From assembly GCF_003569045.1 (NCBI RefSeq), contig NZ_BFCB01000002.1:1469506-1533505 (forward strand): a DNA stretch of 64,000 nucleotides, given 5' to 3'. The notes beneath the pieces are model-generated. The model was not told where the DNA came from. It saw only the letters and a list, made by a program, of their open reading frames with translations, and made no database searches. The position numbers and the translations under genes are program-made. Each line of letters opens with the position of its first letter. Positions within the stretch are counted from its first letter, which is position 1. The DNA comes from Aggregatilinea lenta (GTDB lineage: Bacteria; Chloroflexota; Anaerolineae; Aggregatilineales; Aggregatilineaceae). Below are positions 3,255-5,310 of this stretch, in pieces.

Positions 3255-4589
3255 TTACTCGCTCAACAGGCTGCGCACGGCCTGGACCGCCTCGGCGCGT
3301 GGCGCGCTGATCTCGGTGCCGTCGCTCAGGCGCTTGAAGTTCACCACGCCGTTTTTGATCTCCTCGGACCCCAGGAACGCCACCACACGCACGCCCTTGC
3401 GATCCGCGTACTGCACCTGCTTTCCAATCGATTTCTTCGGCTGCATGAACGCCTCGGTCCGCACGCCGCCCGCGCGCAGTTCGTTCGCCAGCTTGAGCGT
3501 TTCGCCTTGCAGGCCCGGCTCGAAGACCGTCACCAGCGCCTCGACCACCGTCCCGGTCAGCGCGGGCGGATACAGGTCGAGCTTGTCCATCAGGTCGATG
3601 ATGCGCTCCACGCCCAGGCTCGTGCCTGTCGTGGCCAGACTCTGCTTGCGGAACAGGCCCACAAGCTCGTCGTAACGCCCGCCGCCGGTCACGCTGCCCA
3701 GGTTATCGGGCTTGGTGATGACCGTCTCGAAAATCGGCCCGGTGTAGTAGCTCAGGCCGCGCACCATCGCGTAATCGATCTGCACGTTCTCCTGCGGCAC
3801 GCCCATCACGTTCAGGTACTCGACCATCTGCTCCAGGTCCGCGATACCCTTCTGCGCCGGTTCGATGCCCGCCAGCAGCTCGCGCAGCCAGCCCAGCGAC
3901 TCCGCGCCACCTTCGCGCCGTTCGAGCAACGTGAACATGCGCGCGATCGCGTCTTCCGCGATGCCGCTTTCGCGCAGTTCCGCCGCCACGCCGTCGATCC
4001 CGATCTTGTCGAGCTTATCCACGCTGCGATACAGGTCGCCCAGTTGCGCGTCGGGCACGCCCGCGTAAATACCGATCCCCGTCAGGATCTGGCGGTGGTT
4101 AACGTTCACCTTAAAGTCCGCGAAGCCCAGCCGCCGCAGCGCCGTCGTCACCAGACTGACGATCTCCGCGTCCGCCGACGGGTCCTCGATGCCGACGATG
4201 TCCGCGTCGCACTGGTAGAACTCGCGGTAGCGGCCCTTTTGCGGGCGCTCCGCGCGCCACACCGGGGCGATGTGATAGCGCCGGAACGGGAACGACAGAT
4301 CGTTTTCGTGCATCGACACGTAGCGGCTCAGCGGCACGGTAAGGTCATAGCGCAGCGCCAGTTCCTCCTTGCCGCCGGGGTGTTGCGCGTGGAAGATCAG
4401 CTTCTCGGCCTCGTCGCCATATTTACCGAGCAGCGTGTCTTCCATTTCGAGCACGGGCGTCTCGATCGGCTCGAAGCCGAAGGTCTTGAACACGTCCGTG
4501 ATCACGCCAAACACGTACTGGCGCTTGAGCACTTCTTCCGGCAGGAAGTCGCGCATCCCTTTGGGCAGGCGGGCGTCAATTTTGGGCAT
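3255..4589 (-). CDS. hisS: Histidine-tRNA ligase
   Basis: A 444-residue class II aminoacyl-tRNA synthetase that charges tRNA-His. The N-terminus (PKGMRDFLPEE) is the family hallmark. Motif 2 is in FRRYHIAPVWRAERP, the histidine-specific loops include GGRYDELV, and motif 3 is in TSLGVERIIDLMD. The C-terminal anticodon-binding domain is present and the length is normal. The start ATG at 4589 lies about 70 nt after an intrinsic terminator inside the leader. The leader also encodes a peptide with three consecutive His codons. Expression is therefore probably raised when charged tRNA-His is scarce, through ribosome stalling and anti-termination. Confidence 0.97.
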   Translation of the reverse strand: MPKIDARLPKGMRDFLPEEVLKRQYVFGVITDVFKTFGFEPIETPVLEMEDTLLGKYGDEAEKLIFHAQHPGGKEELALRYDLTVPLSRYVSMHENDLSFPFRRYHIAPVWRAERPQKGRYREFYQCDADIVGIEDPSADAEIVSLVTTALRRLGFADFKVNVNHRQILTGIGIYAGVPDAQLGDLYRSVDKLDKIGIDGVAAELRESGIAEDAIARMFTLLERREGGAESLGWLRELLAGIEPAQKGIADLEQMVEYLNVMGVPQENVQIDYAMVRGLSYYTGPIFETVITKPDNLGSVTGGGRYDELVGLFRKQSLATTGTSLGVERIIDLMDKLDLYPPALTGTVVEALVTVFEPGLQGETLKLANELRAGGVRTEAFMQPKKSIGKQVQYADRKGVRVVAFLGSEEIKNGVVNFKRLSDGTEISAPRAEAVQAVRSLLSE

Positions 4590-4653
4590 TGCTCGTTACT
4601 CCATCGTGCATACAAGATCGGGTGGGGCGAGTGGACTGCCGCCGGACGCAGGC

Positions 4654-4688
4654 AAACAAAAAGCGTGGCGAGTCGTGTCCACGCTTTT
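4654..4688 (-). terminator. Intrinsic terminator (attenuator) in the hisS leader
   Basis: In the minus-strand transcript AAAAGCGUGG (4688-4679) pairs perfectly with CCACGCUUUU (4668-4659) and is followed by UUUUUGUUU. It lies between the leader peptide and hisS, so only read-through transcripts contain hisS. A competing pairing at 4701-4674 uses the same 5-prime arm. Confidence 0.85.
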
Positions 4689-4701
4689 GAGTGCGTTCAC
4701 G
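4674..4701 (-). promoter_or_regulatory. Anti-terminator stem in the hisS leader
   Basis: CGUG-A-ACGC (4701-4693) can pair with GCGU-GGA-CACG (4684-4674): eight base pairs around a small internal loop with an 8-nt hairpin loop. It consumes the 5-prime arm of the terminator. The segment CGUGA (4701-4697) can instead pair with UCACG (4731-4727) inside the His codons, giving the classic 1:2, 2:3, 3:4 set of alternatives. Confidence 0.6.
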
Positions 4702-4709
4702 GGTCGCCG

Positions 4710-4748
4710 CTATGGAATTTGGGTCGCGTGATGGTGTCGGCGCAGCAT
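4710..4748 (-). CDS. hisS leader peptide with three consecutive His codons
   Basis: A 12-residue ORF, MLRRHHHATQIP, read from ATG at 4748 to TAG at 4710. GAGGAG (4764-4759) lies 10 nt upstream of the ATG and a strong promoter lies just before that. Three adjacent His codons upstream of the histidyl-tRNA synthetase gene make a sensor role likely. A ribosome stalled on these codons would cover 4731-4727 and free the anti-terminator. A ribosome that reaches the stop codon would cover part of 4701-4697 and let the terminator form. No T-box signature is visible in the leader. Translation and regulation are inferred from architecture only. Confidence 0.8.
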   Translation of the reverse strand: MLRRHHHATQIP

Positions 4749-4777
4749 AATACAACCACTCCTCGTAAGTATCCCTC

Positions 4778-4806
4778 AGTATAAGCCGCTTCCCTGTGGA
4801 TGTAAA
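4778..4806 (-). promoter_or_regulatory. hisS promoter
   Basis: Minus-strand TTTACA (4806-4801), spacer of exactly 17 nt, TATACT (4783-4778). Transcription would begin near 4771, about 23 nt before the leader peptide ATG. Confidence 0.8.
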
Positions 4807-4944
4807 GAATTGCGGCGGTGCAGACTGACGCACACTAAAATTCACAGAGAATTCATTCCATCAACTTGTTGCACGTTCCGTATGGTTGAATAATACCTGC
4901 TGCGTTCAGTCAGGGGATCCTGATTTAGGAAATGGAATTATCGC

Positions 4945-5310
4945 ATGGACTCAAGGTATCCTGCCCTTCGCACCATCAGCTTTATCTATAAAGTCATTGC
5001 GGTTATCGTCGGTGTAGGATCGCTTATTGTTTTCTTCGCTTTGATCTTCTCTCTCCCCGACACTCCCACCAAGCTCGAGCGCACCTCGGCGCTGATAGAA
5101 GCGGTCGGTGCGTTAATCGGTGGTGTGATAACCAGCGTCACCCTGTTCGCATCCGGCGAACTCTTCAGCCTGCTGATCGACATGGAAGAAAACTCGCGGG
5201 CGACCCGGCACATGTTGGGGCAGCTTGGCAAATTCCTCTCCTCGCGTGACTGGCCGCCCACGCGCAGTTCCGAGATCCCACCGCTGGACATCCCTGACCA
5301 GTTCCGGTAG
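4945..5310 (+). CDS. Small two-helix membrane protein of unknown function
   Basis: A 121-residue protein preceded by a TAGGAA site. Two hydrophobic segments are visible: residues about 12-38 (FIYKVIAVIVGVGSLIVFFALIF) and about 48-70 (LIEAVGALIGGVITSVTLFA). Between them is a short polar loop with TPTKLERTS, and the soluble C-terminal tail starts with LIDMEENSRATRHML. No catalytic motif is present. The gene is transcribed divergently from hisS and is followed by a strong hairpin terminator, so it is probably a single-gene unit. I do not recognise the family. Confidence 0.7.
   Translation: MDSRYPALRTISFIYKVIAVIVGVGSLIVFFALIFSLPDTPTKLERTSALIEAVGALIGGVITSVTLFASGELFSLLIDMEENSRATRHMLGQLGKFLSSRDWPPTRSSEIPPLDIPDQFR

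Follow-up and report, generated by a model that had tools for sequence, protein, structure and literature searches.

In its overall design, the leader that precedes the histidyl-tRNA synthetase gene hisS of Aggregatilinea lenta is similar to the enteric his leader (Rfam RF00514). Both contain a run of His codons in a short open reading frame (ORF), a terminator, and an alternative antiterminator. The his leader of E. coli has seven His codons, and a protector helix between regions 1 and 2 (1:2) marks the trp/his subtype rather than every leader-peptide attenuator. The leader described here differs from the enteric his leader in several respects: it would control hisS, it belongs to the Chloroflexota, it has three His codons and no supported 1:2 helix, and it has no match in Rfam. 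A leader-peptide attenuator before an aminoacyl-tRNA synthetase gene is also found in E. coli, where the pheM leader peptide belongs to the attenuator of pheST. That system is enteric and concerns Phe, whereas the family of the present genome has a T-box before pheS instead (see below).

In his operon attenuators, stalling of the ribosome leads to read-through (PMC9413887). The same paper describes predicted leaders for his operons of Firmicutes, with three to five consecutive His residues, a terminator and an antiterminator. These belong to another phylum, and they resemble the leaders found here before hisG-hisD. The main text of that paper makes no mention of hisS, and Chloroflexi are named there only in the title of a reference. 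A His leader peptide was predicted for a Bacillus paralogue of hisS (hisS*) and for hisZ (PMC2965389, Naville and Gautheret 2010). By its description, it is like the present leader in standing before a gene of the hisS family. In Bacillus, however, this gene is a paralogue and the main hisS is under T-box control, while the only hisS found in the present genome carries the leader. The authors of that paper knew of demonstrated leader peptide systems, with the exception of ermC, in no groups other than Proteobacteria and Actinobacteria.

For the Chloroflexi, T-boxes were described in two genomes, for the ile synthetase and trp genes (PMC2494555), and a survey that plotted leader genes for many groups calls its Chloroflexi diagram insignificant, as there were too few genomes (PMC4833913). 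No report of leader-peptide attenuation in Chloroflexi or Anaerolineae was found in a literature search that covered mainly open-access journal papers. The first-pass annotation of this DNA had known of no His-leader attenuator controlling hisS in this phylum. The literature agrees with this for Chloroflexota, while the Bacillus prediction already gives a His leader before a hisS paralogue. The mechanism of the hisS leader is classical, and what is new is its presence in a phylum for which no described case was found.

Layout and folding of the hisS leader

The locus lies in a window of 64 kb (the whole stretch of DNA analysed). Its features, in window coordinates, are as follows.

4806-4801 (-35) and 4783-4778 (-10), minus strand: candidate promoter TTTACA-17-TATACT, from sequence reading and a promoter scan
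4764-4759, minus strand: Shine-Dalgarno-like GAGGAG, 10 nt upstream of the leader ATG
4748-4710, minus strand: leader ORF MLRRHHHATQIP, 12 codons (ATG 4748-4746, TAG 4712-4710)
4736-4728, minus strand: proposed sensor, three consecutive His codons CAC CAT CAC
4709-4693, minus strand: region 2, the 5' strand of the antiterminator, beginning directly after the stop codon, core CGUG at 4701-4698
4701-4693, minus strand: CGTGAACGC, from sequence reading
4684-4669, minus strand: region 3, part of the 5' arm of the terminator plus loop, alternative partner of regions 2 and 4
4688-4654, minus strand: intrinsic terminator (3:4), AAAAGCGTGG at 4688-4679, loop ACACGACTCG, CCACGCTTTT at 4668-4659, then TGTTT
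3255-4589, minus strand: hisS (ATG at 4589), histidyl-tRNA synthetase by Pfam and TIGR00442, proposed controlled gene

Direct reading finds the promoter, GAGGAG, 12-codon ORF and terminator where the first-pass annotation had placed them. The promoter is the single promoter-like site between 4300 and 5200 (shuffles average 0.4), and a similar box pair precedes the leaders of the leader-bearing members of the family as judged by eye, with a poorer -35 box in one of them (L009). The terminator hairpin (4688-4659) has 10 perfect pairs, a loop of 10 nt and a T-rich tail, and is located about 70 nt upstream of the hisS ATG. A terminator scan with a loop limit of 8 reported none at the leader because of the longer loop, and a separate scan finds the hairpin. 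The gene behind the leader is hisS, as had been proposed, with matches of its product to PF13393 (3.6e-51), PF03129 (HGTP_anticodon, 1e-13) and TIGR00442 (above cut-off). The protein has one match in its own genome, which is 98.38% complete. The closest ORF of note upstream, at 4945, is on the plus strand and points away from hisS, so no minus-strand gene upstream needs this terminator. A scan of both strands of the window for a short ORF with at least three His codons, including a tandem pair, followed by a terminator finds the MLRRHHHATQIP site alone. The sole Rfam match in the window at the gathering score is a tmRNA gene (RF00023, 43639-44020, minus strand).

In the proposed mechanism, RNA polymerase would start about 20-30 nt upstream of the leader ORF, with a ribosome following it. 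When His-tRNA is charged, the ribosome would reach the stop codon and its footprint would cover region 2, so that region 3 would pair with region 4 and transcription would end before hisS. When charged His-tRNA is scarce, the ribosome would stall on the His codons and leave region 2 free. Pairing of region 2 with the loop and the 5' arm of the terminator would then let transcription continue into hisS.

The two folds of the leader are mutually exclusive, and the position of the ribosome selects between them in folding calculations. The terminator has a probability of 0.00 when a ribosome occupies the first His codon (modelled with its edge 13 nt past that codon) and of 0.95 with the ribosome at the stop codon, in agreement with the earlier proposal that a stall frees region 2 and release at the stop covers it. 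The outcome is the same when the ribosome edge is varied from 9 to 17 nt for a ribosome at the stop codon (terminator 0.93-0.95) and from 10 to 16 nt for one stalled on the His codons. Only 1 in 500 dinucleotide shuffles of the intervening segment gives as large a change. Considered alone, the sequence gives modest statistics, with a z score of -1.43 for the free fold (23 of 200 shuffles are equally good) and a p value of 0.075 in a best-duplex test.

The four-region design drawn in the first-pass annotation is retained in part. Its region 3 pairs, in the folding calculations, with either region 2 or region 4. The CGUG/CACG part of the two-helix 2:3 pairing has a probability of 0.98-0.99 in the full transcript when region 2 is free and of 0.00 with a ribosome at the stop, while competition from a shifted register holds the CGC/GCG part of the second helix to about 0.3. 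The protector helix (1:2, UCACG/CGUGA), in which the His codons would pair with region 2, is rejected (0.00-0.03). As this helix is unsupported, the leader looks, in the folding models, like a two-state rather than a four-region switch. With no ribosome on the leader, the antiterminator folds and the terminator probability is 0.01. In thermodynamic terms, termination should therefore need a ribosome that reaches the leader stop. The enteric trp and his leaders do the opposite.

Recurrence and covariation in related genomes

The DNA upstream of hisS was compared at 176 loci, 15 from the family of the window, 95 more from its order and 66 from elsewhere in the class. For the order, upstream DNA was read for 110 loci among 138 genomes with hisS. 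The other orders were sampled through 40 loci from the top of the score-sorted matches listed, by which some hisS subtypes are over-represented, and through 30 of 44 matches. Five duplicates (L016, L224, L227, L228, L230) were left out; the upstream DNA of L016 is identical to that of L010 (genome G008, in the family of the window). The outgroup loci L017-L021 were also left out, and no His leader was seen in them (L020 is without upstream DNA, and L017 has only 104 nt). In one of these, from an Anaerolineales MAG (L021), hisS is immediately preceded by what, judged by eye, resembles a tRNA gene with the anticodon GTG (His), behind which come a hairpin and a run rich in T. Loci L022-L095 (74 of 80 loci, outside the class) are not part of the count of 176.

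His-rich short ORFs with terminators recur in these genomes. Under a strict rule, which requires a terminator behind a short ORF that has at least three His codons and among them a tandem pair, 40 of the 176 upstream regions are positive; the same rule gives 12 for Arg and 11 for Ser, the next amino acids. Whole dinucleotide shuffles give 0/176 in each of 20 rounds, and shuffles of the upstream part with the terminator kept give 0-4 per round (50 rounds) among the 57 of 176 regions that have a terminator, although the relatives are not independent and such counts overstate the certainty. A looser rule (two His codons, in tandem or one apart, before a terminator) finds 47 leaders, 39 among the 110 loci of the order and 8 among the 66 of other orders. 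Outside the class, the looser rule is satisfied at 1 of 50 loci, with the hisS start set by alignment; the longest-open-frame start (30 of the 50 loci) gives the same 1/50. This sole His leader outside the class (L357) has MSVIVRLNSQHHAHACSAQGVP together with an AGCGTGG terminator, and is possibly the result of horizontal transfer.

The leaders contain up to eight His residues, in patterns such as HHH, HHHH, HPHH, CHH and HAHHH. There are 29 distinct codon strings for the His run among the 47 leaders, with counts of 104 for CAT and 65 for CAC as compared to 17 for CAA and 9 for CAG. These varied strings, with both CAT and CAC, show that the amino acid is kept and not the base string. The non-His residues and the choice between CAC and CAT vary among the leaders, while clustered His codons recur. 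Comparison of homologous hisS leaders for a conserved His-codon run and terminator had been named as a check on the original proposal, and both are found.

The leader is not universal, as 71 of the 110 loci of the order fail the looser rule. In the family of the window, 6 of 15 hisS loci have no leader (L004-L007, L012 and L015). Four of these loci are from a single genus, g12 (L004, L006, L007 and L012), in which hisS is located behind an arsC-type phosphatase-like gene as judged by eye. In another genus (g2), two loci have only an HSH pattern and an imperfect terminator stem (L011 and L013) and a third has one His codon (L014), also by eye; these are outside the rule-based count. All three keep a promoter and a terminator despite having one or two His codons, and are perhaps decaying or re-purposed attenuators. 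In the large genus g46 the leader is present at 1 of the 19 loci examined (L150), and in family f7 at none of 9 hisS loci. The hisS of genome G159 (L226) has a GAGCGTGG terminator upstream and no His leader by the rule.

The switch seen in the window is also observed, on average, across the 47 leaders, with mean terminator probabilities of 0.50 in the stalled state and 0.88 at the stop. The real change exceeds the change in shuffled sequences over the leaders (Wilcoxon p 0.0005). Stalling lowers the terminator probability by more than 0.25 in 21 of the 39 leaders from the order and in 1 of the 8 from other orders. Two close relatives in the window's own family (L002 and L003) show no switch in folding, and L002 is slightly reversed (0.84 stalled, 0.63 at the stop). 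The ribosome-free terminator probability has a mean of 0.68 over the 47 leaders, so the ribosome-free behaviour of the leader in the window is not general. Before the 3' arm has been made, the nascent leader has a mean folding energy of -14.6 kcal/mol when stalled as compared to -5.5 at the stop, partly because more RNA is free in the stalled state. This difference may perhaps decide the outcome during transcription. The duplex test is weak when applied leader by leader (mean z -1.03, with 11 of 47 below p 0.05).

The two strands of the 2:3 pairing covary. Family f6 has many leaders in which region 2 follows the stop codon without a gap and is complementary to the 4-nt loop of the terminator and one further base, and the two sides change together (CCAAC/GTTGG, CTGAC/GTCAG, CCAGC/GCTGG and ACGGT/GCCGT). 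For counting, the two blocks were set by rule as the 5 nt after the stop and the loop with the first base of the 3' arm, in the 28 of 47 leaders that have a 4-nt loop; the leader in the window, with its 10-nt loop, is outside this set. These 28 leaders have 88 Watson-Crick pairs, as compared to 64.7 with permuted partners (0 of 10000 permutations reach this number), and the 22 distinct pairs have 59 as compared to a permuted mean of 46.5 (reached in 29 of 10000), again with relatives that are not independent. In families f48 and f43, the last part of the ORF itself contains region 2 (CCGCGCC with GGCGTGG). The attenuation model requires region 2 to lie at the stop or close to it. Together with the recurrence of the His-rich ORFs and terminators, this covariation supports the original proposal of a His-codon-sensing attenuator before hisS.

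A second His leader and a T-box in the same genome

A search for hisD in 18 genomes gave 17 loci, in 15 of the genomes. In the genome of the window, hisG-hisD (locus L278; TIGR00070 1.2e-48, TIGR00069 1.2e-149) is preceded by a leader of its own.

6481-6620 of L278: second His-leader attenuator, before hisG-hisD

This leader has TTGACA-17-TATACT, the ORF MNVQAQFHAHHHGITPG, and a terminator with a sequence unlike that of the hisS terminator. A His leader with a terminator precedes hisG-hisD at each of the 8 loci of this kind in the family, with runs such as HTHAHHHH and HIHTHHHHH (TIGR00070 identifies hisG at the five loci searched with it, and the other three were identified by eye). A His leader also precedes hisD in one genome of family f2 (L294). 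In genomes of f6, 8 hisD loci were scanned with the requirement of three or more His codons, and no leader was found. Pairing of the His codons with leader RNA further downstream is predicted in the 8 leaders of the family (mean 0.17-0.74), so the hisG leaders appear closer to the full classical design. Their terminators are favoured in both ribosome states, and the calculation shows no clean thermodynamic switch. With this second, different His leader before hisG-hisD, histidine supply and charging would answer one signal. For leuA, no terminator was found within 600 nt upstream (10 of 13 matches scanned).

The pheS gene was considered as a further case of leader-peptide attenuation and was dropped, as a T-box (RF00230) is found there instead. 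In the genome of the window, it covers 282 nt (L295 986-1267, E 3.2e-19); its score of 85.4 bits is below the gathering score of 93, and it is absent from the Rfam search at that score. The T-box core is present upstream of pheS in 7 of the 7 family members examined by eye. The hisS leader (4580-4830) has no Rfam match up to E 10, RF00514 (His_leader) and RF00230 included, and 16 hisS loci searched together have none up to E 1. The case for the hisS leader therefore rests on comparison.

Alternative explanations and implications

A histidine-responsive, ribosome-mediated transcription attenuator that controls hisS has, in our estimate, a probability of about 0.9, and bacteria with this leader most likely sense histidine shortage through stalling of the ribosome. 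Three other explanations were weighed.

The hairpin could be an attenuator under other control, for example through binding of HisRS or another protein. Autocontrol of a synthetase through RNA does exist, in the threonyl-tRNA synthetase of E. coli (PMC2965389), and about half of the leaders are without a clean thermodynamic switch. This explanation is nonetheless very improbable, as it accounts neither for the in-frame runs of His codons in a short ORF nor for the separate His leader of hisG-hisD, whose terminator is different.

A T-box would bind uncharged tRNA-His with CAC as its specifier codon and would have no translated ORF. In its favour are the T-boxes reported in two Dehalococcoides genomes of the Chloroflexi (PMC2494555), the role of hisS as a known T-box target in Bacillus (PMC2965389), and the pheS T-box in the same genome (below its gathering score). 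At hisS, however, the Rfam searches above find none, the leader spans about 115 nt from its inferred start to the end of the terminator as compared to 282 nt for the pheS T-box, and a single T-box specifier has no need of several His codons, varied in codon and placed between a start and a stop. We consider a T-box at hisS very improbable.

Chance juxtaposition of a plain terminator and an ORF is hardly credible and already contradicted by the comparative data (40/176 as compared to 0/176 in each of 20 shuffles, the covariation, and a divergent ORF at 4945 that leaves the terminator with no upstream minus-strand gene to serve), for all the modest free-fold statistics of the single sequence and the 71 of 110 loci of the order that fail the looser rule.

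The attenuator reading thus stands, and the hisS attenuator is real and recurrent, one half of a histidine regulon of two operons with hisG-hisD. It extends leader-peptide attenuation to the Chloroflexota, a phylum with no earlier report among the papers searched, and places T-box sensing (pheS) beside leader-peptide sensing (hisS and hisG-hisD) in one genome. The leaders diverge fast but preserve the His run and the complementarity, and they provide a natural series on the essential parts of an attenuator, including the protector helix. A wider picture, of an Anaerolineae histidine regulon with leaders before hisS and hisG-hisD, a T-box before pheS, and a hisS switch that works without a protector and turns on when leader translation is lost, is tentative and rather doubtful as a whole. 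If it is true, loss of leader translation would turn hisS on, not off, and termination would need a ribosome at the leader stop.
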